The notes under the pieces: model-generated
Database searches by the model: none
Seen by the model: only the letters and a program-made list of their open reading frames with translations
What the model was told of the DNA's origin: nothing
Assembly (NCBI GenBank): GCA_024636495.1
Contig: JAGXGZ010000056.1
Span: 1-64,000, forward strand
DNA length: 64,000 nt
Source: Roseobacter sp.
GTDB taxonomy: Bacteria; Pseudomonadota; Alphaproteobacteria; Rhodobacterales; Rhodobacteraceae
Direction: 5' to 3'
Shown: positions 17,071 through 29,766 of the stretch, in pieces
Layout of the letters: the number at the start of each line of letters is the position of its first letter
Numbering within the stretch: the stretch's first letter is position 1
Position numbers and translations under genes: made by a program

Positions 17071-17147
17071 GCACCCGTAGCTCAGCTGGATAGAGTACCT
17101 GACTACGAATCAGGGGGCCGGGCGTTCGAATCGCTCCGGGTGCACCA
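17071..17147 (+). tRNA. tRNA-Arg (anticodon ACG)
   Basis: A 77-base cloverleaf with a 7-bp acceptor stem (GCACCCG with CGGGTGC), D-arm GCTC...GAGT, anticodon stem CCTGA/TCAGG with loop CTACGAA, T-arm GGGCG-TTCGAAT-CGCTC, discriminator A and an encoded CCA end. The anticodon ACG is read as ICG and decodes CGU, CGC and CGA arginine codons. Confidence 0.97.
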
Positions 17148-17175
17148 ACTTCCTTCCAGAATTTATATTGATACT

Positions 17176-17195
17176 CAGCTCTAATTTGCGAGCTG
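17176..17195. terminator. Weak hairpin after tRNA-Arg
   Basis: A six-base stem (CAGCTC and GAGCTG) with an eight-base loop lies between the tRNA gene and the convergent DUF3047 gene and is followed by TTAATCT. It may end one or both transcripts but is short. Confidence 0.3.
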
Positions 17196-17209
17196 TTAAT
17201 CTAGGGTCG

Positions 17210-17857
17210 TTACTGCAACCTTAACCCGGATATGCGTGCCGAAATCGCGGTGTTCGTATCGTCGCTGTCGGCCGAGACTGCCAGACCAACCAGCCTTTGT
17301 GCTGCTTCGCCAAATGCACGTTGATAATCCTGTGCAAGATCGACACCCTCAGACGCTGTACCTGTGCCAGCACCCCGCTTGATGATGCTGCGACCACGCG
17401 CGCCCAGATAGGGGCTGGGCAAAATTTGTCCTCGGGTATGGGATCCGCCCCAGATGTACATCAAAACGCGCACATCCGGATTGTCCAGCAACGATCGGAC
17501 GCCTTTGCCCTGTGCTGCTTGCGCTGCCGCTTCCGGTAAAAATATAAAGTACATGGCCAGATTGCGGTCATCGCCCCCTTTTTTGGACAGGTCCGTAGCG
17601 GGCACCGATGTGTCTACCGCCCAATCCCAGCTTGCCTGCGTACTGACCCACATGGTTTGAGGGAGGGCCGTCCATAATAGCGAAACGGTGTCGCTTGATT
17701 TGACGCCAAGGCTGCCACCATTCAGCGCAAAATCGTTGCTGCCAAACAATGAGAATTTCTGTTCCTTCCAGTTGCTGCCAAAACTCACTTGCTGACTGCT
17801 TGCTAGGGTCGGGGCGACCATCAAAAGACATGCCACGGCTGCTGCTATTTTTTTCAT
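17210..17857 (-). CDS. DUF3047 domain-containing exported protein
   Basis: The 215-residue product begins with a signal peptide (about residues 1-21, ending LASSQ). The rest fits DUF3047: an early W-KEQKFSLFGSNDFAL segment, the tryptophan-rich strand ASWDWAVD, the hallmark DLSKKGGDDRNLAMYF (about residues 90-106) and a YIWGGSH segment. Proteins of this family are periplasmic or secreted and without a known activity. It is a single gene converging on the tRNA gene. Confidence 0.82.
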   Translation of the reverse strand: MKKIAAAVACLLMVAPTLASSQQVSFGSNWKEQKFSLFGSNDFALNGGSLGVKSSDTVSLLWTALPQTMWVSTQASWDWAVDTSVPATDLSKKGGDDRNLAMYFIFLPEAAAQAAQGKGVRSLLDNPDVRVLMYIWGGSHTRGQILPSPYLGARGRSIIKRGAGTGTASEGVDLAQDYQRAFGEAAQRLVGLAVSADSDDTNTAISARISGLRLQ

Positions 17858-17943
17858 GATCGAACTCCTCTGGGTTCCAATCTAGCGGAAAACGCGCGGT
17901 TGTCCGCAGCCCATCATATCAACTCTGCGTCATAGATGTGACG

Positions 17944-17969
17944 AAGCGCGCCCATTTCTGAGCGCGCTT
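17944..17969 (-). terminator. Hairpin downstream of the first TRAP operon
   Basis: An eight-base GC-rich stem (AAGCGCGC and GCGCGCTT) with a ten-base loop lies about 30 bases past the dctM stop on the minus strand. No long T-tract follows on either strand, so its strength as a terminator is unclear. Confidence 0.4.
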
Positions 17970-18000
17970 GTAACCGGACTAACCGCACTTTGCGGCCAAA

Positions 18001-19314
18001 TCAGCCGTAAAAAAGCCTTGGGAAGTACAACGCGATTTCCGGGAAAAGGATGATCAATGCCACGCCGATTAACGTCACGACGACATAAGGGAACACCGAT
18101 GCATAGATGTCGCCCATAGTGATGTCTGGCGGGGCGACCCCTTTTAGGTAGAACAGGTTAAAGCCAAAGGGCGGCGTCATATATCCGACCTCCATCATGA
18201 TGATGAACAAGATGCCAAACCAGATCGGATCAAAGCCGGCGTCGCGAACAACTGGCAAAAAGACGGGCAGCGTGATCAACATGATACCGACAGGATCAAG
18301 CACCATGCCGAAAAAGAACAGCACGACCAGCATGAAGAACAGCGCGCCCCAGCGGCCACCGGGGATGTAGGCCATCAGATCAGAGATCAGGCTTTGCGCC
18401 CCCAACGCGGTGTAGGCGGTCGAAAACGCATGTGCCGCAAACAGGATCCACATAACCAATGCCGTCAATTTCAACGTGGCGATGGACGCTTCGTGGATCA
18501 CCTTTGTATTCAGCTGTCCATTGATCAGCGTCGCGACAAGAGAACCGAACACACCGATTGCAGCGGCTTCGGTCGGGGTGGCAAACCCGCCAAATATTGC
18601 GCCCAAAACGATTGTGACGATCATGATGGGCAAGATCACCGCCTTGAGGGATTTCAGTTTCATCGGCCAGCTTGCACGTTCGTCGGGTGGTAACGCCGGA
18701 CCCAGTTCAGGCTGCAACCAGCAGCGCCCGCCGATGTAGATCGTGACAAGAATGAACAGGGTCAGACCCGGACCGATTCCTGCTGCAAACAAACGGCCAA
18801 CCGATACTTCGGTTAGCAAGGAATAAAGCACCATCAAGATCGACGGCGGGATAAGGATGCCCCAGCCGCCCCCTGCATTGATTGCCCCCAATGCCAGCTT
18901 TTTATCGTATCCCCGTTCCAGCATCTTTGGCAGGGCAATGGTCCCCATCGTGACGACAGCAGCACCGGAAATGCCAGACATCGCTGCGAAGATCACACAG
19001 ATCAGCACGGTCCCGATGGCCAGCCCGCCGCGCAAGCCGCCGAACCATTGGTGCATCATATCGTAAAGGTCATTCGCGACCCCCGATTTTTCAAGCAAGA
19101 TCGCCATGAAGACGAAGAGCGGCACCGCCATCAGGGTCGGTGACTGCATGGTTTCCCACATTTTCGAGGCAAGCAAATAGAACCCTATTGGACCCATCTC
19201 GAAATACAAAAAGACGACGGAAACACCGCCCAGCACGAAGGCGAGCGGAGTTCCGAGCATCAAAAACACCAAAAGGGCGCCGAAAAACAGCAGTGTAAGA
19301 AGTTCGACGCTCAT
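18001..19314 (-). CDS. dctM: TRAP transporter large permease (DctM-type), first system
   Basis: This 437-residue inner-membrane protein has about 12 hydrophobic segments and the DctM/SiaM features LMLGTPLAFVLGGV near the start, FVFMAILLEKSGVA, GGLRGGLAIGTVLICVIFAA and GFATPTEAAAIGVFGSLVA. It couples sodium-gradient energy to uptake of the ligand delivered by the DctP protein. The start giving MSVELLTLLF overlaps the small permease stop by four bases (ATGA); longer frames would overlap that gene heavily. It is the last gene of rpiR-dctP-dctQ-dctM on the minus strand. Confidence 0.93.
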   Translation of the reverse strand: MSVELLTLLFFGALLVFLMLGTPLAFVLGGVSVVFLYFEMGPIGFYLLASKMWETMQSPTLMAVPLFVFMAILLEKSGVANDLYDMMHQWFGGLRGGLAIGTVLICVIFAAMSGISGAAVVTMGTIALPKMLERGYDKKLALGAINAGGGWGILIPPSILMVLYSLLTEVSVGRLFAAGIGPGLTLFILVTIYIGGRCWLQPELGPALPPDERASWPMKLKSLKAVILPIMIVTIVLGAIFGGFATPTEAAAIGVFGSLVATLINGQLNTKVIHEASIATLKLTALVMWILFAAHAFSTAYTALGAQSLISDLMAYIPGGRWGALFFMLVVLFFFGMVLDPVGIMLITLPVFLPVVRDAGFDPIWFGILFIIMMEVGYMTPPFGFNLFYLKGVAPPDITMGDIYASVFPYVVVTLIGVALIILFPEIALYFPRLFYG

Positions 19315-19877
19315 CGCTGCATCTCCTGTGTATCTGCTGTTGGTGCGTCGGGGTCGCCCGGTTTTCCAAACACATCTGCTGGAATGGGCAAGCCACGCAA
19401 AACGCGGATATCCGACCATAGCCGAACGATGCCTTGCAACAGCAGCAAGATCGCAGCGACGGGGATAAGCGCCTTGGTCGGCCAAAGCGGTGCCTTCCAG
19501 ACAGAGTTCGAGCGTTCAAGATCCTCAATTGCCTCAACGGCGATATCCCACCCTTGCCAAAGCAGAACCCCGACAAAAAGCAGAAACAGGGGCCAGGTTA
19601 GAATGTCCAATAGCGCGCGGCGTTTTTGGGTCATCCGGCCATAGAAAATATCGACGTTTACGTGCCCGCGTTCAGACAGCAGATAGCCGCCGCCGATAAT
19701 GGCGTAGACGCCAAATATTAATGTCGCAAGCTCGGCGGTCCAGATTGTGGGGCTGCCCACTAGATAGCGCATGGCCACGTCTGCCAGCAAAAGCGCAAAG
19801 ATGAGCAGGACGCCCAAGGACATCCATCGCCCAATAAATTGGTTCACGCGCGTGATCGTACGGGCCAGCTGCAACAT
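19311..19877 (-). CDS. dctQ: TRAP transporter small permease (DctQ-type), first system
   Basis: The 188-residue product has four membrane segments typical of DctQ, with the conserved middle region TIWTAELATLIFGVYAIIGGGY and RGHVNVDIFYGRM. It has a hydrophilic C-terminal tail of about 30 residues. It forms a tight complex with DctM and interacts with the loaded binding protein. It overlaps dctM by four bases and lies 82 bases after dctP. Confidence 0.9.
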   Translation of the reverse strand: MLQLARTITRVNQFIGRWMSLGVLLIFALLLADVAMRYLVGSPTIWTAELATLIFGVYAIIGGGYLLSERGHVNVDIFYGRMTQKRRALLDILTWPLFLLFVGVLLWQGWDIAVEAIEDLERSNSVWKAPLWPTKALIPVAAILLLLQGIVRLWSDIRVLRGLPIPADVFGKPGDPDAPTADTQEMQR

Positions 19878-19959
19878 GCCTGCATGCTCCTTTAGCGAAA
19901 AGGGGGAAGGGGGTGGCGCATCTGACGCGCGCCACCTTTCTTATCGTGCGAAACCGGAC

Positions 19960-21003
19960 TTAAACGTAGCCCATGTCCTTCATCAGCGAACGGTAGATGT
20001 CAGCTGCTTTGGCGGCGCGTTCGCCTTTCTGGCCTTCGGTCTCAAGAATCTGCGCGGATGCTGTGGCAAGCATTTCAAGCACGTCGTCGGGCAATTGCAC
20101 GATCTCGATCCCGTCATTTGCAACGCCTTCGGCAAGGGCGATGGCTTCGAAATGCTGATACTCTGCCGAGCGCAGGAAGAACCGCTTGTCGATGGTATCA
20201 ATCAGCGCGTTGCGCAGATCTTCTGGCAGGCCTTCAAGCGCGTCCTGGTTGAAAATGAACGCGTCTGTGGTTTGCGCCAGAACAGGCTTGTAGTGGTACT
20301 TGCACACTTCCCAAAGCGACATCGATTGCGCGCCGATGGCAGCACCCCAATGTGCACCGTCAACAACACCTGAACTCAGCGATTGATACAGCTCGGACCC
20401 CGGAATGTATTGCGGTGCCGCACCAGCGGCTGCCAGATAATCCAGCATGGCACCCGAAGACCTGATTTTCAGACCTTGGAAGTCAGCAGCGGATTCGATC
20501 TTTTTGGACAAGACCATTTCCGTGGGCAGCACTTTTTCGCACATCAGATGCACGCCGTCTGCGTTCAGATCCTCGTTTACCAGCGCCTCGACGCCGAGGT
20601 TCTTCATCGCGTGTTCCATTTCCCACGCCTGTCGCAGGGTCCCGGGGATGCCATAGACAAAGGTGGCTGCTTGCGCTTGATCCGAAATGTACGAGGGGCT
20701 GATTGTACCCATCGGCACAACGCCCTTGCGCACGATATTGTAGATGTCCGGCCCCTTGGCAAATTCGCCGGCACCGAGCAGTTCAAGTTTGAATGCGCCT
20801 TCGGTCTTTTCTTCCAGCTGTGAGGCGACGACCCCAAGACTGTCGGTAAAGGAGCTGGACGCCTTGGGCCAATGGGCCTGAACGCGCCACGTCACCTCTC
20901 CTGCGGCGATCGCTTTGCCGACCAGCGCCGGAGATGCCACGGCAGCGACAGCGGCACCGCGCAAAACAGACCGGCGGTTCAGCTTCATGTTCACTTTATT
21001 CAT
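19960..21003 (-). CDS. dctP: TRAP transporter substrate-binding protein (DctP family, TakP-like), first system
   Basis: The 347-residue product starts with a twin-arginine signal (NRRSVLRGAAVAAVASPALVG), which predicts export in folded form. The mature part is a DctP-family binding protein; WRVQAHWPKASSSFTDSLG and the arginine-containing GLKIRSSGAMLDYL (likely carboxylate-binding arginine, about residue 170) resemble the TakP group that binds 2-oxo acids and related carboxylates. The ligand cannot be named. GGAGGAAG stands five bases before the ATG. It lies 133 bases downstream of rpiR in the same direction. Confidence 0.9.
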   Translation of the reverse strand: MNKVNMKLNRRSVLRGAAVAAVASPALVGKAIAAGEVTWRVQAHWPKASSSFTDSLGVVASQLEEKTEGAFKLELLGAGEFAKGPDIYNIVRKGVVPMGTISPSYISDQAQAATFVYGIPGTLRQAWEMEHAMKNLGVEALVNEDLNADGVHLMCEKVLPTEMVLSKKIESAADFQGLKIRSSGAMLDYLAAAGAAPQYIPGSELYQSLSSGVVDGAHWGAAIGAQSMSLWEVCKYHYKPVLAQTTDAFIFNQDALEGLPEDLRNALIDTIDKRFFLRSAEYQHFEAIALAEGVANDGIEIVQLPDDVLEMLATASAQILETEGQKGERAAKAADIYRSLMKDMGYV

Positions 21004-21073
21004 GTCTTCCTCCCAATATTTTTAAAATCGATGTGCCATCTATCAAGCACGCCAATCTCGCCGGCATATCCAG

Positions 21074-21082
21074 CGAAATTTC
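21074..21082. promoter_or_regulatory. Possible RpiR operator upstream of dctP
   Basis: The perfect palindrome GAAATTTC, within AAGAAATTTCGC on the minus strand, lies about 75 bases before the first dctP gene. It resembles the AGAA-AAA-TTCT palindrome found in the rpiR divergent region. Short palindromes arise by chance, so this is only a candidate site. Confidence 0.25.
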
Positions 21083-21136
21083 TTCCCGTTTGTTGATCCT
21101 GACAAATGTCCGGTTCAATCTCAACAAGTTAATTAT

Positions 21137-22003
21137 TTAATTGCTGCGGAAGATCCGGGATTCGCCGATCATCTGCTCAAGTGCGGCGATGCGCTCTGCG
21201 CTTTGATCCGAACTGCGCGATTGCACTTCGGCCACCAGCGCTTCGATCAGAAAATTGATGGCAAGCGTGGAATCCCAGCTCGACGGGACTTCGACCATCG
21301 ACCGAAAGCAGAACCGCGCGTATTTCTCGATCGGTGATCCCCAGGCATCGGTGAAAAGAACGATGCTGGCACCTTGTTTGACCGCCAGATTTGCCAGCTT
21401 TTCCAGCTCTTTCTCGTATCGGCGGATATCGAAGATGACCAGAACAGCGCTGGCGTCCATGTCCAGCAAGGATTGCGGCCAAACGCTTGGCGACGAATCC
21501 AGCAGCGTAACCTGAGGACGGATGATCTGAAGATGGTTGAAAAAGTAGTGCGCATTCGACCGTGTGATGCGACCGCCTAACAGATATAGACGGCGCCGGG
21601 GGTCGGAGAGCACTTCTGCCACCTGGTCGAATTCGGCCAGATCAAGCCTGTCGAGCGTTCGGTTGATGTTGTCTGATACGGCCTTGATGAACCGTGAAAC
21701 AATATGATCAAGGCTGCCAGAAGGGGCGGTGGCATCCAGCTTTGCAAGCGGTTGTTTCATCCGCGCGCCAATCTCATCGCGGATCGCGTCTTGCATGTCC
21801 GAGAAGCCTTCGAACCCCAGCTTGCGGGCGAGCCGAATTATCGTGGGCGATGACACTTCAGCGCATTCCGCAAGTTTGTTGATGGATTGCAATCCTGTCA
21901 GCAGGGAATCGTCGAGCAAAACGGCTGCTAGTTTGCGCTCTGCCGCCGTAAGTTCAGCCTGCTTTTCTTTAAGCAGGTCTCGGACCAATGCTTTTTTATG
22001 CAA
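21137..22003 (-). CDS. MurR/RpiR-family transcriptional regulator
   Basis: The 288-residue product has an N-terminal RpiR helix-turn-helix domain (about residues 1-77, with VSSPTIIRLARKLGFEGFSD) and a C-terminal SIS sugar-isomerase-like sensing domain (about residues 115-255). RpiR regulators bind phosphosugars or other small metabolites. Its start is a TTG with AAGGAA seven bases upstream. It lies between two divergent TRAP gene sets and is the natural candidate to control both. The 115-base region shared with the divergent operon contains repeated operator-like sequence. Confidence 0.9.
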   Translation of the reverse strand: MHKKALVRDLLKEKQAELTAAERKLAAVLLDDSLLTGLQSINKLAECAEVSSPTIIRLARKLGFEGFSDMQDAIRDEIGARMKQPLAKLDATAPSGSLDHIVSRFIKAVSDNINRTLDRLDLAEFDQVAEVLSDPRRRLYLLGGRITRSNAHYFFNHLQIIRPQVTLLDSSPSVWPQSLLDMDASAVLVIFDIRRYEKELEKLANLAVKQGASIVLFTDAWGSPIEKYARFCFRSMVEVPSSWDSTLAINFLIEALVAEVQSRSSDQSAERIAALEQMIGESRIFRSN

Positions 22004-22050
22004 ACGTTGTTCCTTTCGGTACAGAGGCGTACTTTATGAAGCAAAGGTTA

Positions 22051-22082
22051 CAGAAAAATTCTTGACACGCCAGAAAAATCTG
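22051..22082. promoter_or_regulatory. Divergent promoter region with paired operator-like repeats
   Basis: Two copies of CAGAAAAAT start at 22051 and 22071, exactly 20 bases apart (about two helical turns). Each forms a small palindrome: AGAA-AAA-TTCT in the first copy and CAGA-AAAA-TCTG in the second. A perfect TTGACA (22062-22067) lies between them, oriented toward the amidohydrolase gene. A repressor bound here would cover the -35 box. The RpiR protein encoded next door is the likely binder; this is inferred. Confidence 0.5.
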
Positions 22083-22118
22083 TAGTGATGGGGGAAACAG
22101 CAAGGAAGAGTTAGTACC

Positions 22119-22871
22119 TTGGATCACGACTGGACAGCAGCACAAGTCATGAACAGCGGCGGGCAGGGGTCCGTTTTGCTGGTGTGCGAACACGCGTCCA
22201 GTTTCATCCCTGACGATCTGGATGGCTTGGGGGCAAGCGCCGATGCGCGCCGATCTCACGCGGCTTGGGACATTGGCGCACTGGATGTCGCCACCGCGTT
22301 GTCGCAGCTTCTGGATGCGCCGTTGGTTGCGGGTGCGATTTCGCGGTTGGTCTATGATTGTAACCGTCCTTTGTCCGCGCCTGACTGTATCCCAGTGCGC
22401 AGCGAAATCTACGAGATTCCGGGCAATGCAGATCTTGGCGAGGCCGACAAACAGGCGCGTTTTGACCGTGTCCACACGCCCTTCCATGATACTGTTGCAA
22501 ATCAAAGCGGTATGGCCAACCCCGCAATTTTGGTGACGATCCACAGCTTTGCGCCTATTTTTAATGGCATCGCTCGTGAGGTTGAGCTTGGCTTTTTGTA
22601 TCATAACGACCCAGCCCCGGCTCAGGCGCTGCTGGCGCAAGAGCAAAAGCAAGGCGTCTTTCGATCAGCTTTGAATGAACCTTATGCGGCAAAGGACGGT
22701 GTGACCTACACGCTGGATAAACACGGCGAAGCGCGCAGGGTGCCTGCGGTCATGATCGAAATACGCAACGACCTGATCGACACGGGCGAAAAAGCGCAAG
22801 CCATGGCGCAGCATCTTAGCGTGTCAATCAACGCCGCTTTCCCAGACATTCGTCAAAAGGCCACCCGATGA
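22119..22871 (+). CDS. N-formylglutamate amidohydrolase family protein (HutG-like)
   Basis: The 250-residue product matches the FGase family: LLVCEHASSFIPD near the start, the AAWDIGALDVA segment, RLVYDCNRP and ILVTIHSFAPIFNG. Members hydrolyse N-formyl-L-glutamate or related N-acyl/gamma-glutamyl amides, probably with a bound metal. No histidine-utilisation gene is nearby. A gamma-glutamyl ligase and two dehydrogenases lie downstream, so release of a gamma-glutamyl group from an oxidised intermediate is an attractive alternative role. Its start is TTG, with AGGAAGAG eight bases upstream; the later ATG has no ribosome-binding site. It overlaps the small permease gene by four bases. Confidence 0.85.
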   Translation: MDHDWTAAQVMNSGGQGSVLLVCEHASSFIPDDLDGLGASADARRSHAAWDIGALDVATALSQLLDAPLVAGAISRLVYDCNRPLSAPDCIPVRSEIYEIPGNADLGEADKQARFDRVHTPFHDTVANQSGMANPAILVTIHSFAPIFNGIAREVELGFLYHNDPAPAQALLAQEQKQGVFRSALNEPYAAKDGVTYTLDKHGEARRVPAVMIEIRNDLIDTGEKAQAMAQHLSVSINAAFPDIRQKATR

Positions 22872-23389
22872 ACGCGATGCGCAGATATGTATCATTGGTT
22901 GACGGCTTTAACTACGGGCTTGGTCGGATCGCGATGTACGGCATCTTCGTGCTGATGGGCATCTTGCTGTGGTCGTCGATGAACAAGACGTTTTTCAGCC
23001 CCTCGCTCTGGACGCTGGAAATGGCGCAGTTTGTGATGGTCGGCTACTATATCTTGGGCGGGCCTTACGCCATGCAGATGGGGTCAAGCGTGCGGATGGA
23101 TCTGTTTTATGCTGAACTGACACCGCGCAAAAAGGCCTGGACAGATAGCATTACAGTGCTGTTTTTGCTGATCTATTTATTCATCCTGCTGTGGGGCGGC
23201 ATCGAATCTACGATATATTCGTTCAAATATGGGGGCGAACGCAGCCCGACCGCCTGGCGGCCCTATATGTGGCCCGTCAAAGTGACGATGTGCATCGGCA
23301 TCTTCTTGATGTTGTTGCAAGCTGTGTCTGAGCTTTTCAAGGACATCCTTTTCCTCAAATCCGGTGAGGACACGCGCGATGCCCTATGA
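22868..23389 (+). CDS. dctQ: TRAP transporter small permease (DctQ-type), second system
   Basis: This 173-residue inner-membrane protein has four hydrophobic segments and the DctQ pattern LWTLEMAQFVMVGYYILGGPY followed by MQMGSSVRMDLFYAEL. It couples with the large permease encoded next and overlaps both neighbours: ATGA with the amidohydrolase, 11 bases with the large permease. The sequence is clearly different from the first DctQ in this window, so the two systems are not recent duplicates. Confidence 0.9.
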   Translation: MNAMRRYVSLVDGFNYGLGRIAMYGIFVLMGILLWSSMNKTFFSPSLWTLEMAQFVMVGYYILGGPYAMQMGSSVRMDLFYAELTPRKKAWTDSITVLFLLIYLFILLWGGIESTIYSFKYGGERSPTAWRPYMWPVKVTMCIGIFLMLLQAVSELFKDILFLKSGEDTRDAL

Positions 23390-24704
23390 ACTGATCGCCA
23401 TATTGATGTTTTCGACCATGATGCTGATGTTGCTGACTGGGCAGCGGGTGTTCGGGGCCATCGGCTTTGTTGCCGTGATCGCCGCGCTGTTTTTATGGGG
23501 CGACCGGGGCGGCTATGACATCGGATTTTCTGCCGCGATCAAGCTGATGCGCTGGTATCCGTTGCTGACCCTGCCGATGTTCATTTTCATGGGCTATGTG
23601 CTGTCGGAATCCAAGATTGCCGATGACCTTTACAAGATGTTCCACGTCTTTATGGGCGGGCTGCGCGGGGGGCTGGCGATTGGCACGATCGGCCTGATGG
23701 TGCTGATTTCCGCAATGAACGGGCTGTCGGTCGCGGGTATGGCGATTGGGGCGACAATTGCCTTGCCCGAGCTGTTGAAACGCAATTACGACAAGCTGAT
23801 GGTGACCGGGGTCATTCAGGCCGGATCAAGCTTGGGCATTCTGGTGCCGCCTTCGGTCGTGCTGGTGCTTTATGCGATGATCGCCCGCCAGCCGGTGGGG
23901 CAATTATGGCTGGCTGGGGCCATTCCGGGGCTGATGATGGCCACGATGTTCATCATCTACATTGCGATCCGCTGCCGGATTAACCCCGAGTTGGGGCCTG
24001 TTCTGCCGCCCGAAGAACGCGATGTCGGCTGGCCCGAAAAGCTGCGCCTGTTGCGCGCTGGGCTGCTGCCTATGGTGATCTTTGCGGTGATGATGGTGCC
24101 CTTTGTGAACGGCTGGACCTCGCTGGTCGAAAGCTCGGCCATTGGGGCAATCGCCGCCTTTGTTGCGGCTGTGTTGAAGGGGCGGATGACACGTCAGGTG
24201 TTCGAGACATCGGTGCGCCAGACGTTGGCCATTACCTGCATGTTCATGTGGATCATCCTCGCTGCACTTGCCTTTGGTGCGGTGTTCGATGGCTTGGGCG
24301 CGGTCAAGGCGATTGAGGCGCTGTTTACCGAACAATGGGGGCTGAACCCTTGGGTGATCCTGATCCTGATGCAGCTGTCGTTTTTGGTGATGGGTACGTT
24401 TTTGGATGACACGGCGATGCTGGTCATTGTTGCCCCGCTTTATGTGCCCTTGGTCGGTGCGCTTGGGTTCGATCTGGTGTGGTACGGTGTGCTGTATACG
24501 ATCACCTGCCAGATCGCCTACATGACGCCGCCCTTTGGCTACAACCTGTTTTTGATGCGCGCCATGGCCCCGCCCGAGATCACGATCACCGATATCTACC
24601 GGTCGATTATTCCGTTCGTGGGCGTGATGATACTGGCCTTGGCTGTTGTGATGATATTTCCGCAGATCGCCCTGTGGCTGCCCAACTATGTCTATGGAAA
24701 ATAA
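23379..24704 (+). CDS. dctM: TRAP transporter large permease (DctM-type), second system
   Basis: The 441-residue product has about 12 membrane segments with LTGQRVFGAIGFVAVIAAL, LPMFIFMGYVLSESKIADD, GGLRGGLAIGTIGLM and VESSAIGAIAAFVAAVL. These are the standard landmarks of the large TRAP subunit. I chose the ATG giving MPYELIAIL because GAGGA lies eight bases upstream; a GTG five codons earlier is possible. The pair of permease genes sits between the amidohydrolase and the binding-protein gene. Confidence 0.92.
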   Translation: MPYELIAILMFSTMMLMLLTGQRVFGAIGFVAVIAALFLWGDRGGYDIGFSAAIKLMRWYPLLTLPMFIFMGYVLSESKIADDLYKMFHVFMGGLRGGLAIGTIGLMVLISAMNGLSVAGMAIGATIALPELLKRNYDKLMVTGVIQAGSSLGILVPPSVVLVLYAMIARQPVGQLWLAGAIPGLMMATMFIIYIAIRCRINPELGPVLPPEERDVGWPEKLRLLRAGLLPMVIFAVMMVPFVNGWTSLVESSAIGAIAAFVAAVLKGRMTRQVFETSVRQTLAITCMFMWIILAALAFGAVFDGLGAVKAIEALFTEQWGLNPWVILILMQLSFLVMGTFLDDTAMLVIVAPLYVPLVGALGFDLVWYGVLYTITCQIAYMTPPFGYNLFLMRAMAPPEITITDIYRSIIPFVGVMILALAVVMIFPQIALWLPNYVYGK

Positions 24705-24765
24705 CCAAAACGTGGCTGGATGAACCAGCCCTATTCACCCTGAAACCCGACAAGGAGAGTTCGAC

Positions 24766-25803
24766 ATGACAACCAGACGTAAGTTTCTTAAAGGGGCTGC
24801 AATTGCTGGCCCCGCGACCCTCGCAGCACCATCGATCTTGCACGCCCAAGAGCCGATCCGCTGGCGTTTTCAAACCTACGCAGGCGCGGCCCTTGGTGAA
24901 GAAGTAACCAAGCCCGCCATAGACGCGATCAATGCGGCGGCCCAAGGCCAGCTTGAGATCGAATTGTTCTATGCCGATCAGATTGTCCCCACCGGAGAGC
25001 TGTTCCAGGCGCTTCAGCGCGGCACGATTGACGGCGTTCATTCGGACGACGATTCAATGGCGTCGCCCACGCCGGTCCGGTCTTTCGGCGGCTATTTCCC
25101 CTTGGCGACAAAGCATGCTTTGGACGTGCCTGTACTGTTCAATCAATACGGTCTGGCGGACATCTGGCGCGAAGAATACGCCAAGGTCGGCGTGCATTGG
25201 CTGTCTGCGGCGGGTCAGGATCCGTGCAACTTTAACACGGTCAAACCGATCCGGTCGCTTGCCGATATGGACGGGCTCAAGCTTTATACCTTCCCGACGG
25301 CGGGTCGTTTCTTGTCGCAGTTTGGCGTTGTTCCGGTAAACATCCCCTATGAGGACGCCGAAGTCGCTGTGCAAACAGGCGAATTGGACGGTATGGCGTG
25401 GTCGGGCATCACCGAAGACTACACCGTGGGCTGGGCCGATGTGACCAACTATTTCTGCACCAACAACATCTCGGGTGCATGGATAGGATCGTTCTTTGTC
25501 AACGCGGAGAAATGGGCAGAACTGCCTGATCACCTCAAGCAGATCGTGTCGTCGGCGATTGATGCCAGCCACACCTACCGCAACCAGTGGTATTGGGGCG
25601 GCGAAGCACGTCTGCGTGCGTCTGGCGAAAAGCTGGAACTGACGTCGATCCCGCAGGAAGAGTGGAAAACCGTCGAAGAGGCGGCCGTCACCTTCTGGGA
25701 TGAAATGGCCCAAGAAGGCGAAACGGCGGCCAAGATCGTTCAGATCTTCCGGGACTATAACGAAGTCATCTCGAAAGCGGGTCCGCCCTACACCTTCGGC
25801 TGA
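24766..25803 (+). CDS. dctP: TRAP transporter substrate-binding protein (DctP family), second system
   Basis: The 345-residue product carries a twin-arginine signal (TRRKFLKGAAIAGPATLAA, cleavage near ILHAQE). Its mature sequence, WRFQTYAGAALGEEVTKPA onward, is DctP-family and distantly like the TakP group. Ligand contacts probably include the tyrosine/threonine-rich GLKLYTFPTAGRFL region (about residues 170-184) and the acidic DDDSMAS region. Several tryptophans and an unusual acidic pocket could suit an amine-bearing ligand, but that is speculative. AAGGAGAG stands eight bases before the start. Confidence 0.9.
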   Translation: MTTRRKFLKGAAIAGPATLAAPSILHAQEPIRWRFQTYAGAALGEEVTKPAIDAINAAAQGQLEIELFYADQIVPTGELFQALQRGTIDGVHSDDDSMASPTPVRSFGGYFPLATKHALDVPVLFNQYGLADIWREEYAKVGVHWLSAAGQDPCNFNTVKPIRSLADMDGLKLYTFPTAGRFLSQFGVVPVNIPYEDAEVAVQTGELDGMAWSGITEDYTVGWADVTNYFCTNNISGAWIGSFFVNAEKWAELPDHLKQIVSSAIDASHTYRNQWYWGGEARLRASGEKLELTSIPQEEWKTVEEAAVTFWDEMAQEGETAAKIVQIFRDYNEVISKAGPPYTFG

Positions 25804-25873
25804 ACGCGCGTATAGTCTGACAAAGGGGCGGTGCAGCTGTGCCGCCCTACACATGCAAAAGGGACCTCTGCAC

Positions 25874-27235
25874 ATGGGCAATCTTTCATTCAACACGCTC
25901 AAGGAAATGGCCGCCGCAGGCGAGATCGACACCGTGCTGGTCGCATTGGTCGATATGCAGGGCCGCCTAATGGGCAAACGTTTTCACGTCAGCAATTTCA
26001 TCGACCATTCCCATGCGGAAACCCATTGCTGCAATTATCTGTTGGCCACCGATCTGGTGATGTCCACGCCCGAGGGGTTTGCCTCGACCAGTTGGCAAAC
26101 CGGCTATGGCGACTATGTGCTGCGCCCTGATCTGTCGAATATGCGGCGGGTGCCGTGGCTGGAAAAAACAGTGCTGGTGTTGGGCGATGTGCTGGATCAC
26201 CACACTCACGAACCCGTGCCCCATTCGCCCCGCGCCATGTTGCAAAAACAAATCGCGCGTCTGGACGCTTTGGGCTTTGACGCGATGATGGCGACCGAGT
26301 TGGAGTTTTTCTTGTTCGAGGGCGATTACCGGACCCTTCAAAAAGAGAAATACGCCAACCTTGTGCCGTTGAACGGTCACAACGAAGATTATTGCCTGTT
26401 CCAGACCTCGAAAGAGGAGGCATTCCTGCGGCCCTTGCGCAACCATCTGGTTGCCGCTGGCGTCCCGATTGAATGCACCAAGGGCGAGGCTGAAACTGGC
26501 CAGCAAGAGCTGAACATTCGTTATGCCGATGCGCTTGCCTGTGCGGATAACCACACAATTTCCAAGCAGGCGGTCAAGGAAATCGCCTTTCAACAGGGGT
26601 TTTCCGCGTCGTTCCTGCCCAAGTGGGCGGCGGATAAGGTCGGATCGTCCAGCCACGTGCATATGTCGCTTTGGAAAGACGGTGTACCTGCGTTTTTCGA
26701 CAAGGATGCCAAGCTGGGGATGTCCGACCTGATGCGGCATTTCATGGTCGGGTTAATCACCTATGCGCCTGATATCACGTATTTTTTGGCCCCTTATATC
26801 AACAGCTACAAACGTTTCGCCAAAGGCACCTTTGCGCCCACAAAAACGGTTTGGTCTGTCGATAACCGCACCGCTGGCTTTCGCCTATGTGGTGATGGCA
26901 CCAAGGGCATTCGTGTTGAATGTCGCATTGGCGGGTCGGACCTGAACCCCTATCTGGCGCAGGCCGCATTGCTTGCGGCGGGCCTAAAGGGCATCGAGGA
27001 AAAACTGACCTTGCAAGAGCCGACGATGGGTGATGTCTACGAGGATGCAGGCGTCACGGAAATCCCCCGGACGTTGCGCGCTGCGACCGAAACCCTGCGC
27101 AATTCCGCGATGTTGCGCGCCGCACTTGGGGACGACGTCGTCGACCACTACACCCGCGCCGCCGAATGGGAGCAGGAAGAATACGACAAGGTCGTGACCG
27201 ATTGGGAAATCAACCGCGGATTTGAGCGAGCATAA
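25874..27235 (+). CDS. Glutamine-synthetase-family gamma-glutamyl ligase
   Basis: This 453-residue protein has both glutamine synthetase domains: an N-terminal beta-grasp (TVLVALVDMQGRLMGKRF) and the catalytic barrel with TELEFFLFE, GEAETGQQELNIRYADAL, SSHVHMSLW and GIRVECRIGGSDLNPYL. The metal and ATP residues look intact. Gene context points away from ammonia assimilation and toward ATP-dependent gamma-glutamylation of an amine, as in PuuA, IpuC or GMAS. The amine is unknown. The ATG chosen follows AAGGGA by about ten bases; an ATG seven codons earlier lacks such a site. The aldehyde dehydrogenase gene follows after three bases. Confidence 0.88.
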   Translation: MGNLSFNTLKEMAAAGEIDTVLVALVDMQGRLMGKRFHVSNFIDHSHAETHCCNYLLATDLVMSTPEGFASTSWQTGYGDYVLRPDLSNMRRVPWLEKTVLVLGDVLDHHTHEPVPHSPRAMLQKQIARLDALGFDAMMATELEFFLFEGDYRTLQKEKYANLVPLNGHNEDYCLFQTSKEEAFLRPLRNHLVAAGVPIECTKGEAETGQQELNIRYADALACADNHTISKQAVKEIAFQQGFSASFLPKWAADKVGSSSHVHMSLWKDGVPAFFDKDAKLGMSDLMRHFMVGLITYAPDITYFLAPYINSYKRFAKGTFAPTKTVWSVDNRTAGFRLCGDGTKGIRVECRIGGSDLNPYLAQAALLAAGLKGIEEKLTLQEPTMGDVYEDAGVTEIPRTLRAATETLRNSAMLRAALGDDVVDHYTRAAEWEQEEYDKVVTDWEINRGFERA

Positions 27236-27238
27236 GCA

Positions 27239-28615
27239 ATGACAAAGACCCTGAAATGTATCTCACCGATTGACGGATCGGTTTATCTGGAACGCCCTGT
27301 GCTATCGCTGGACGCTGCGCGCGAAGTGTGCGCGCGGTCCAAGGCAGCGCAGGCGGATTGGGCGGCACGCCCCTTGTCCGAGCGCATTGATCTGGTGCGC
27401 GCAGCCGTTGCCGAAGTGGGCAAAACCACGGACCGCATGGCCGTTGAACTGGCCCATCAAATGGGCCGCCCCGTGCGCTATGGCGGTGAATTTGGCGGCT
27501 TTAACGAGCGCGCCAGCTATATGGCCGATATCGCGGAACAGGCTCTGGCCCCGATGATCATCGAGGATAGCGAGAAAGCCACCCGCAAGATTACCCGCGA
27601 AGCGCGCGGCGTTGTGCTGGTGGTGGCCCCGTGGAACTATCCTTACATGACGGCAATCAACACGGTGGCACCAGCGCTGATCGCGGGCAATACCGTTGTG
27701 CTGAAACATGCGACGCAAACCTTGCAAGTGGGCGAACGTCTGGCCGAAGCGTTCCATGCCGCTGGCGTTCCTGATGACGTTTTCCAAAACGTGTTTCTGG
27801 ATCATGACACCACATCGACCCTGATTTCGGAACGCCATTTCGGCTTTGTCAATTTCACCGGCTCGGTCGGGGGCGGCAAGGCGATGGAGGTTGCGGCGGC
27901 TGGCACGTTCACGCCCGTTGCGACCGAACTCGGGGGCAAAGACCCAGGATATGTGCGCGCTGACGCCGATGTTGGCGCGGCGGTTGACGGGCTGATGGAT
28001 GGCGCGATGTTCAACGCGGGCCAATGTTGCTGTGGGATTGAACGGATATATGTCCACGAAAGCCTATATGATGCGTTTGTTGAAAAGGCCGTGACTTGGG
28101 TCAACGCTTTGACGCTTGGGAACCCGTTGAATCCGGAAACCACGATCGGCCCGATGGCCAACGTGCGCTTTGCCGCCGAAGTCCGCGCCCAGATCGCCGA
28201 AGCTGTGGCCGATGGTGCGACCGCGCTGATCAAACCCTTTGCCCAAGATGACGGTGCCGCCTATCTGACGCCGCAAATCCTGACGAATGTAACCCATAAA
28301 ATGCGCGTCATGCGCGACGAAAGTTTTGGCCCGGTGGTCGGCATCATGCCGGTCAAGGACGACGCCGAAGCGATTGCGCTGATGAATGATTGCCAGTTCG
28401 GTCTGACGGCAGCGATCTTTACCAAAGACGCGGATGCTGCCGATGCGATTGGCGCGCAGCTTGAAACCGGCACGGTGTTTATGAACCGGTGTGATTACCT
28501 TGATCCCGCGCTGTGCTGGACGGGTTGCAAGGACACCGGCCAAGGTGCCGGCCTGTCGGTTCTGGGCTTTCAGGCGCTGACGCGTCCCAAATCTTACCAC
28601 CTTAAAAAGGCGTGA
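27239..28615 (+). CDS. NAD(P)-dependent aldehyde dehydrogenase
   Basis: The 458-residue product has the ALDH signatures APWNYPYMTAINTVAPALIAGN (split over about residues 130-151), the glutamate in TELGGKDPGYV and the catalytic cysteine region NAGQCCCGIER (about residues 261-271). NFTGSVGGGK marks the cofactor-binding loop. The family oxidises aldehydes to acids. Within this gene set it would act on the aldehyde formed by the following alcohol dehydrogenase, possibly as a gamma-glutamyl derivative. Three adjacent cysteines at the active site are notable but occur in other ALDHs. Confidence 0.92.
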   Translation: MTKTLKCISPIDGSVYLERPVLSLDAAREVCARSKAAQADWAARPLSERIDLVRAAVAEVGKTTDRMAVELAHQMGRPVRYGGEFGGFNERASYMADIAEQALAPMIIEDSEKATRKITREARGVVLVVAPWNYPYMTAINTVAPALIAGNTVVLKHATQTLQVGERLAEAFHAAGVPDDVFQNVFLDHDTTSTLISERHFGFVNFTGSVGGGKAMEVAAAGTFTPVATELGGKDPGYVRADADVGAAVDGLMDGAMFNAGQCCCGIERIYVHESLYDAFVEKAVTWVNALTLGNPLNPETTIGPMANVRFAAEVRAQIAEAVADGATALIKPFAQDDGAAYLTPQILTNVTHKMRVMRDESFGPVVGIMPVKDDAEAIALMNDCQFGLTAAIFTKDADAADAIGAQLETGTVFMNRCDYLDPALCWTGCKDTGQGAGLSVLGFQALTRPKSYHLKKA

Positions 28616-28620
28616 TCCTC

Positions 28621-29766
28621 ATGGAGCTGAAAAACAACTGGTCCTACCCCACCGCCATGCGCTTTGGCGCGGGCCGCATTGCCGAGATCGGTCAGGCTTG
28701 TGTGGCCGCTGGCATCAAAAAGCCGCTGCTTGTCACCGACAAGGGACTTGCCAAAATGGAGATCACCACCAACACGCTTGATCTGCTTGAGGCTGCTGGC
28801 TTTGGTCGTGCGATGTTTTCCGAAGTGGATGCAAACCCGACCGAGATCAACCTTGAGGCGGGCCTTCAGGTCTACCGCGACGGGGGCCATGACGGGGTTA
28901 TCGCCTTTGGCGGCGGGTCCGGCCTTGATCTGGGCAAGATGGTCGCGTTCATGGCGGGCCAAACGCGCCCTGTGTGGGATTACGAGGATGTAGGCGATTG
29001 GTGGACCCGCGCCGATGCGGATGCTATCGCACCCATCATCGCGGTGCCGACAACGGCAGGCACCGGATCAGAAGTGGGCCGCGCGTCGGTGCTGACCAAT
29101 TCGCTGACCCATGTGAAAAAGATCATCTTTCACCCCAAAGTACTGCCAACGGTGGTGATTTGTGACCCTGAACTGACGGTTGGCATGCCCAAGCATATCA
29201 CCGCAGGCACGGGCCTTGATGCTTTTGCGCATTGCGTCGAGGCGTTTTCCAGCCCGTTTTATCATCCGATGTCCCAAGGCATTGCGCTGGAAGGCATGCG
29301 GTTGGTCATCGATTATCTGCCCCGCGCCTATGCGGACGGCACCGACATCGAGGCGCGCGCGCAGATGATGTCGGCGGCCGCCATGGGGGCGACGGCGTTT
29401 CAAAAAGGTCTGGGTGCAATCCACGCGATGAGCCACCCGATAGGGGCGGTTTTCAACACACATCACGGCACCACCAACGCCGTCTGTATGCCTGCGGTTC
29501 TGGACCTGAACGAAGCGATGATCCGCGAACGGTTTGACCGCGCGGCAGGGTATTTGCGCATCGATGGTGGCTATGACGGTTTCCGCAGCTTTGTGCAGGA
29601 TTTCAATGACAGCTTTGCCATTCCACGCAAGCTGTCCGACATGGGCGTGACAGCCGACCGGATGGACGATCTGGTTGCCATGGCGCTGGAGGATCCATCT
29701 TGCGGGGGCAACCCTGTCAAGCTGACGTCGGATAACCTGCGCAAGCTGTTCGAGGCGACGATTTAA
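28621..29766 (+). CDS. Iron-containing alcohol dehydrogenase
   Basis: This 381-residue group III (Fe-ADH) protein has the NAD-binding GVIAFGGGSGLDLGKM, PTTAGTGSEVGRASV, and the metal ligands within DAFAHCVEAF and GAIHAMSHPIGAVFNTHHG. It should reversibly oxidise a primary alcohol with NAD(P). I used the ATG giving MELKNNWSYPTAMRFG, the usual family start; a GTG three codons earlier overlaps the upstream stop. It is the last gene of the plus-strand catabolic set and is followed by two hairpins. Confidence 0.92.
   Translation: MELKNNWSYPTAMRFGAGRIAEIGQACVAAGIKKPLLVTDKGLAKMEITTNTLDLLEAAGFGRAMFSEVDANPTEINLEAGLQVYRDGGHDGVIAFGGGSGLDLGKMVAFMAGQTRPVWDYEDVGDWWTRADADAIAPIIAVPTTAGTGSEVGRASVLTNSLTHVKKIIFHPKVLPTVVICDPELTVGMPKHITAGTGLDAFAHCVEAFSSPFYHPMSQGIALEGMRLVIDYLPRAYADGTDIEARAQMMSAAAMGATAFQKGLGAIHAMSHPIGAVFNTHHGTTNAVCMPAVLDLNEAMIRERFDRAAGYLRIDGGYDGFRSFVQDFNDSFAIPRKLSDMGVTADRMDDLVAMALEDPSCGGNPVKLTSDNLRKLFEATI

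Follow-up and report, generated by a model that had tools for sequence, protein, structure and literature searches.

We found that the plus-strand gene run at positions 22119-29766 is, with a probability of roughly 0.93, an operon for ethanolamine catabolism by gamma-glutamylation. It lies in a stretch of 64,000 nucleotides from Roseobacter sp. (contig JAGXGZ010000056.1, positions 1 to 64,000 of the forward strand), hereafter called the window. The pathway, by which bacteria of the sea and of soil use ethanolamine, a head group of membrane lipids, is already described and not new, and the window carries an ordinary, well conserved copy of it. A sequence-only reading of this DNA had proposed a complete gamma-glutamylation route beside two divergent TRAP systems around an RpiR regulator, and had known of no described pathway with this set of genes. 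The chemistry of that interpretation stood, whereas its novelty and its grouping of the two TRAP systems did not.

All eleven genes named in that reading were present as open frames and belonged to the families it had given, as judged from the list of open reading frames and from Pfam and NCBIfam searches. The sole correction concerned the ligase, the longest frame of which begins at 25700, within dctP. If the protein is started at 25868, alignments with homologues begin at about its residue 3-6; therefore, the true start was placed near this position. The near-continuous spacing claimed for the plus-strand genes was also borne out, with overlaps or small gaps across the run. In order, the plus strand encodes an FGase-family amidohydrolase (22119..22871; PF05013, 129 bits in Pfam), the TRAP small permease DctQ (EtoV, 22868..23389; PF04290), the TRAP large permease DctM (EtoW, 23364..24704; PF06808), the TRAP binding protein DctP (EtoX, 24766..25803), a glutamine synthetase (GS)-like ligase (25868..27235; PF00120, 325 bits), an aldehyde dehydrogenase (ALDH, 27239..28615; PF00171, 374 bits) and an iron alcohol dehydrogenase (Fe-ADH, 28612..29766; PF00465, 161 bits). 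An RpiR-family regulator (21137..22003, minus strand; PF01418 and PF01380) is divergent from the operon.

EtoVWX would import ethanolamine, EtoX being the expected ethanolamine-binding TRAP protein. The ligase, expected to be an ethanolamine gamma-glutamylase (ETAGA), would use ATP to join ethanolamine to the gamma-carboxyl group of glutamate. The Fe-ADH, as the expected gamma-glutamylethanolamide dehydrogenase, would convert gamma-glutamylethanolamide to the aldehyde, and the ALDH, as the expected gamma-glutamylacetaldehyde-amide dehydrogenase, would convert that aldehyde to gamma-glutamylglycine. Finally, the FGase-family hydrolase, expected to be a gamma-glutamylglycine amidohydrolase (GGAH), would release glycine and regenerate glutamate. 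The RpiR regulator probably controls the operon in response to the substrate. For the proteins of the window, every one of these steps is inferred, as is the regulation. PuuABCD (putrescine) and GMAS (methylamine) follow the same gamma-glutamylation logic with other substrates and other final hydrolases.

The set that had been thought undescribed is described in Phaeobacter sp. MED193, the ethanolamine operon of which comprises MED193_10021-10056 (PMC10132767), and has been proposed for Chromohalobacter salexigens (C. salexigens). The legend and table text of the MED193 paper, in which strands are not given, list the locus tags in the order RpiR, GGAH, EtoV, EtoW, EtoX, ETAGA, GAADDH and GETADH, where GAADDH is gamma-glutamylacetaldehyde-amide dehydrogenase, GETADH is gamma-glutamylethanolamide dehydrogenase and ETAGA is ethanolamine gamma-glutamylase (PMC10132767). 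The tags include rpiR (MED193_10021), the amidohydrolase (MED193_10026), the ALDH (MED193_10051) and the Fe-ADH (MED193_10056) (PMC10132767). The window holds the same content (PF00120, PF00171, PF00465 and PF05013 with TRAP DctQ/M/P and RpiR), and its eight genes stand in identical order, including EtoV, EtoW and the two dehydrogenases; this comparison is one of gene content and order. The window differs from MED193 in an extra, unlinked TRAP cassette downstream of rpiR. In MED193 growing on phosphoethanolamine, proteomics showed raised levels of the amidohydrolase, EtoX, the ligase and both dehydrogenases, and the Kd of EtoX for ethanolamine is 7.9 uM (PMC10132767). In that account, the published evidence consists of EtoX binding and the proteome, and the later steps are assigned from protein family and induction (PMC10132767). 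The ligation, alcohol oxidation, aldehyde oxidation and amide hydrolysis postulated from the sequence thus match the MED193 operon and the published set; the FGase-family enzyme as final hydrolase agrees with the described ethanolamine pathway, and the amino alcohol imported by TRAP is ethanolamine, which was on the list of amines suggested for assay.

Two further systems share this chemistry. The C. salexigens pathway comprises PF00120, PF00465, PF00171 and PF05013 (PMC9397018), four enzyme families in common with the window; one source treats it as an in silico prediction (PMC6529630) and another as demonstrated (PMC10132767). The Streptomyces coelicolor GlnA4 pathway (SCO1611, 1612, 1613 and 1615) has four proposed steps that match those of the window, the last assigned to a member of the formylglutamate-amidohydrolase family, and activity was shown for its ligase GlnA4; it differs from the window in phylum and regulator, and the passages on it name no TRAP transporter (PMC6529630).

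EtoX matched PDB chain 4uab at E 7.7e-147, with 212 of 325 aligned residues identical (65%), and the next distinct PDB sequence followed at E 9.1e-19. We take 4uab to be Csal_0678, the solute-binding protein (SBP) of the C. salexigens ethanolamine pathway, which reportedly goes back to Vetting et al. 2015. Csal_0678 binds ethanolamine and is without the arginine by which TRAP proteins hold carboxylates (PMC4646407). Reading the alignments at this selectivity-filter position, we found Tyr in EtoX and Phe in 4uab. EtoX is therefore homologous to an ethanolamine-binding SBP and lacks the carboxylate Arg, and the Tyr fits the non-carboxylate ligand expected for it. Among the matches listed, the nearest EtoX proteins were those of Sulfitobacter, at 96-97% identity, so that the window probably comes from a Sulfitobacter.

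Judged by family names alone, the ligase and the FGase might instead form a glutamine synthetase and N-formylglutamate (histidine) salvage cluster without gamma-glutamylation. However, the ligase did not reach the NCBIfam cut-offs for type I or III glutamine synthetase (246 against 429 bits and 238 against 470 bits) or for gamma-glutamylputrescine synthetase (200 against 650 bits). We aligned it with three other PF00120 proteins of the same genome and read the four-sequence alignment by eye, placing the residues presumed to be D50, E327 and N264 by motif. The glutamates and the histidine of the metal site were retained in the ligase, as were the arginines, i.e., the metal and phosphate residues of GS were kept. 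The MFDGSS motif with D50, found in the presumed GlnA of the genome, was absent from the ligase; the E327 position was Phe, and the N264 position of the GS glutamate site was Val. Judging from this alignment, the ligase appears to be without two glutamine synthetase residues needed for glutamine formation. Loss of D50 and E327 has been reported for GlnA4 and PauA7, so that the S. coelicolor ligase resembles that of the window in this respect, and the N264 position of GlnA4 is likewise changed, to Glu (PMC6529630). The operon FGase matched no NCBIfam family at E 0.001, the HutG-type N-formylglutamate hydrolase included, and two further FGase members of the genome both scored above it. With the ligase far below the synthetase cut-off, D50 and E327 gone and two higher-scoring FGase members elsewhere in the genome, a salvage cluster is hardly conceivable.

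At a match threshold of E at most 1e-120, the ligase was found in 139 of 196 genomes of the order Rhodobacterales, that of the window included, and in 59 of 87 genera. We fetched 67 of the other 138 ligase loci, i.e., all nine found in the window's genus plus a single locus from each of 58 other genera, and 48 of these 67 showed the full order of divergent RpiR and seven genes. Further named loci were found through an alignment of 12 EtoX proteins, and the best 80 of at least 574 confirmed loci were kept; the order was complete in 60 of these best 80. The two sets overlap (the contigs of L045 and L048 recur as L140 and L142, at the least), and in both we discarded tblastn matches that spanned under half of the query. 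Because the order is complete in 48 of 67 and 60 of 80 overlapping loci, its conservation goes far beyond chance, which answers the search for the seven-gene neighbourhood in other Rhodobacterales that the sequence-only reading had called for.

Six of the 19 incomplete ligase loci had small gaps: L037 had no ALDH, L044 no ADH in the stretch, L085 no SBP, L099 no FGase, and L081 and L088 neither RpiR nor FGase. In the remaining 13, the ligase stood without a TRAP nearby; 12 of them had the ADH, and seven of those 12 also the ALDH (besides L086, which has both and is truncated at its contig end). In L100, neither dehydrogenase was near the ligase. The ALDH was absent from seven of the 67 loci (L037, L068, L069, L073, L078, L083 and L100), and whole-genome searches for six of these seven gave no ALDH match at E 1e-100. 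Several of the other 20 loci among the best 80 were short contigs (e.g., L116, L161, L191 and L192), and at least seven named loci of about 17 kb had an EtoX-like TRAP with no ligase nearby (L139, L154, L168, L184, L187, L188 and L189). EtoX relatives were also found by tblastn in 17 plasmid records; two were opened, from Ruegeria sp. B32 and from Paracoccus denitrificans PD1222, and in both all eight genes stand in the same order.

Within the 115 bp that separate rpiR from the FGase gene, the divergent promoter region has a conserved core at 22049..22089 (plus strand). This core contains TTGACA (22062-22067), flanked by the two arms of the inverted repeat TACAGA-N24-TCTGTA (22049-22054 and 22079-22084). 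When the window was aligned with five close relatives, the right arm was identical in all six sequences, the left arm in five (TACAGG in L117), and TTGACA was kept in five (TTGACT in L115). The inverted repeat is a candidate RpiR site.

On the minus strand, a second TRAP cassette consists of DctM (18001-19317), DctQ (19311-19877) and DctP (DctP2, 19960-21003). It is not part of the pathway and appears to be a separate transporter, an unrelated neighbour of the operon. The two TRAP systems had been grouped as one, and they would form a functional unit under RpiR if the minus-strand system imported a related substrate; rpiR and dctP2 are indeed co-directional and 133 bp apart. However, none of the 67 or the best 80 overlapping loci, some of them cut by contig ends, had a second TRAP of more than 50% identity at the operon, and L049 had a relative there of 23-30% identity. 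A close DctP2 (E at most 1e-90) occurred in eight of 196 genomes, and three of these had no ligase. In G070, G193 and G036 it shared a contig with the ligase, but at a distance of at least about 0.85 Mb, also on the assumption of a circular contig. In addition, the alignment showed that the second DctP retains the Arg typical of carboxylate binders, suggesting that this TRAP is probably for a carboxylate. We rejected the pairing, to which we assign only a very slight probability: the second TRAP has no conserved linkage to the operon and lies elsewhere in relatives, no other examined locus pairs the two, and the site holds other cargo in relatives.

This site extends from a tRNA-Arg gene (17071-17147), which is also present in L035, L036, L114, L115 and L117, to rpiR, and is variable among near relatives. 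In the window, it holds a DUF3047 gene and the second TRAP; in L117, it is 0.3 kb long with no large gene; L115 has a LysR-family gene as well as a protein of 321 residues that matched no NCBIfam family; and L114 has nspC with a carboxynorspermidine-synthase-like gene that scores under the family cut-off, near-identical genes to this pair being found in L035 and L036. Transcription of rpiR might read through into the inserted TRAP and RpiR might control it, in which case ethanolamine uptake would be wired to carboxylate import via insertion at the tRNA-Arg gene, a very doubtful proposition.

The neighbours of the second TRAP vary by genome, save in G070 and G193. Across the seven other genomes, no neighbour outside the cassette was shared beyond two exceptions, namely ABC ATPases of L107 and L109 that match at 26%, and the near-identical pair G070/G193, in which pobA (4-hydroxybenzoate 3-monooxygenase) lies near the cassette. 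An assignment of the ligand from neighbours was set aside, as the shared context was too little. No plasmid-borne relative of the second DctP was matched at E 1e-60.

Ethanolamine is a marine nitrogen source derived from membrane lipids (PMC10132767). An operon that serves ethanolamine may take the place of the EutBC route. EutB (PF06751) was over its family cut-off in 17 of 196 genomes from 11 genera, leaving out G024, which has two weak end-of-contig fragments. EutB and the ligase occurred together in one genome, with 12.1 expected (two-sided Fisher p 6e-9, kinship ignored); these counts assume that the same 196 genomes were drawn in every search, as the handles suggest. The ligase of that sole genome, G159, was the second weakest of the list, at 56% identity, and had none of the other operon genes in the stretch examined. 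EutB likewise occurred with EtoX in one genome, G139. EtoX and the ligase, meanwhile, were found together in 121 genomes, with 88 expected; 18 of the 139 ligase genomes were without EtoX at the cut-off used, and three of the 124 EtoX genomes were without the ligase. Two controls showed no association with the ligase, namely the hydrogenase family PF00374 (26 genomes over the cut-off, leaving out G020 with one weak match; p 0.64) and the second DctP (eight genomes; p 0.69). Three genera (g6, g7 and g13) each mix genomes of either route. In the genome of the window, at 94.6% completeness, there was no match to EutB of the canonical Eut route (EutBC ethanolamine ammonia-lyase). Likewise, the EutB query had no match among the 67 operon loci, the 80 (the best of at least 574) or L198-L200; it matched L201 only, which is the EutB locus of G139 itself.

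The near mutual exclusion with EutB points to ethanolamine itself as the substrate. The same chemistry could act on another small amino alcohol (3-aminopropanol, alaninol or isopropanolamine), with ethanolamine as a side substrate, since the families fit any primary amino alcohol; the RpiR and FGase relatives, moreover, vary far more from locus to locus, with identities as low as 34% and 38%, than do the transporter permease and the oxidoreductases. We consider this very unlikely in view of the exclusion and of the close match of EtoX to a structurally solved ethanolamine-binding relative. The exclusion gives independent genomic support for the published assignment of ethanolamine as the substrate, and gamma-glutamylation looks to be the commoner ethanolamine route in the order, with the ligase in 139 of 196 genomes compared with 17 for EutB.

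Among the 196 surveyed genomes of the order, EutB (ethanolamine ammonia-lyase) and the GS-like gamma-glutamylation ligase were nearly mutually exclusive: EutB was present in 17 genomes and the ligase in 139, and both were found in only one. Three genera (g6, g7 and g13) each included some genomes with EutB and others with the ligase.

EtoVWX-like TRAP genes occurred in all three genomes that contain EtoX, the expected ethanolamine-binding DctP, and lack the ligase (G139, L198; G024, L199; G115, L200). Because G139 also encodes EutB, on a different contig from these TRAP genes, EtoX may feed the Eut route in that genome.

At seven loci (L037, L068, L069, L073, L078, L083 and L144), the ligase and Fe-ADH genes were present, with an ALDH gene neither between them nor nearby. 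A search of six of the corresponding genomes (G107, G035, G122, G029, G118 and G023) for the operon-type ALDH yielded no match at E 1e-100; therefore, another enzyme may perform the aldehyde step at the ALDH-less loci, or the product may differ.

Genome G000 carries two more GS-like ligases on contig C75 (36723-39763; L002 and L004), with catalytic domains approximately 1 kb apart; an FAD amino-acid-oxidase-like gene adjoins one of them. Both score under the GS cut-offs and may thus belong to a distinct gamma-glutamylation system that acts on other amines.

Gene content at the site between tRNA-Arg(ACG) and rpiR varied among the compared loci; in the window this site spans 17071-21137 and contains DUF3047 and TRAP genes. 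This site holds a LysR-family gene and a gene for a 321-residue protein in L115, and nspC with a carboxynorspermidine-synthase-like gene in L114, L035 and L036; in L117 it contains no large gene. The second TRAP cassette, judged to be outside the pathway, is close to pobA (4-hydroxybenzoate 3-monooxygenase) in G193 and G070 (L110 and L111), the assignment of pobA being tested on the L111 copy. This proximity provides a lead to an aromatic carboxylate as the ligand of the second TRAP system.
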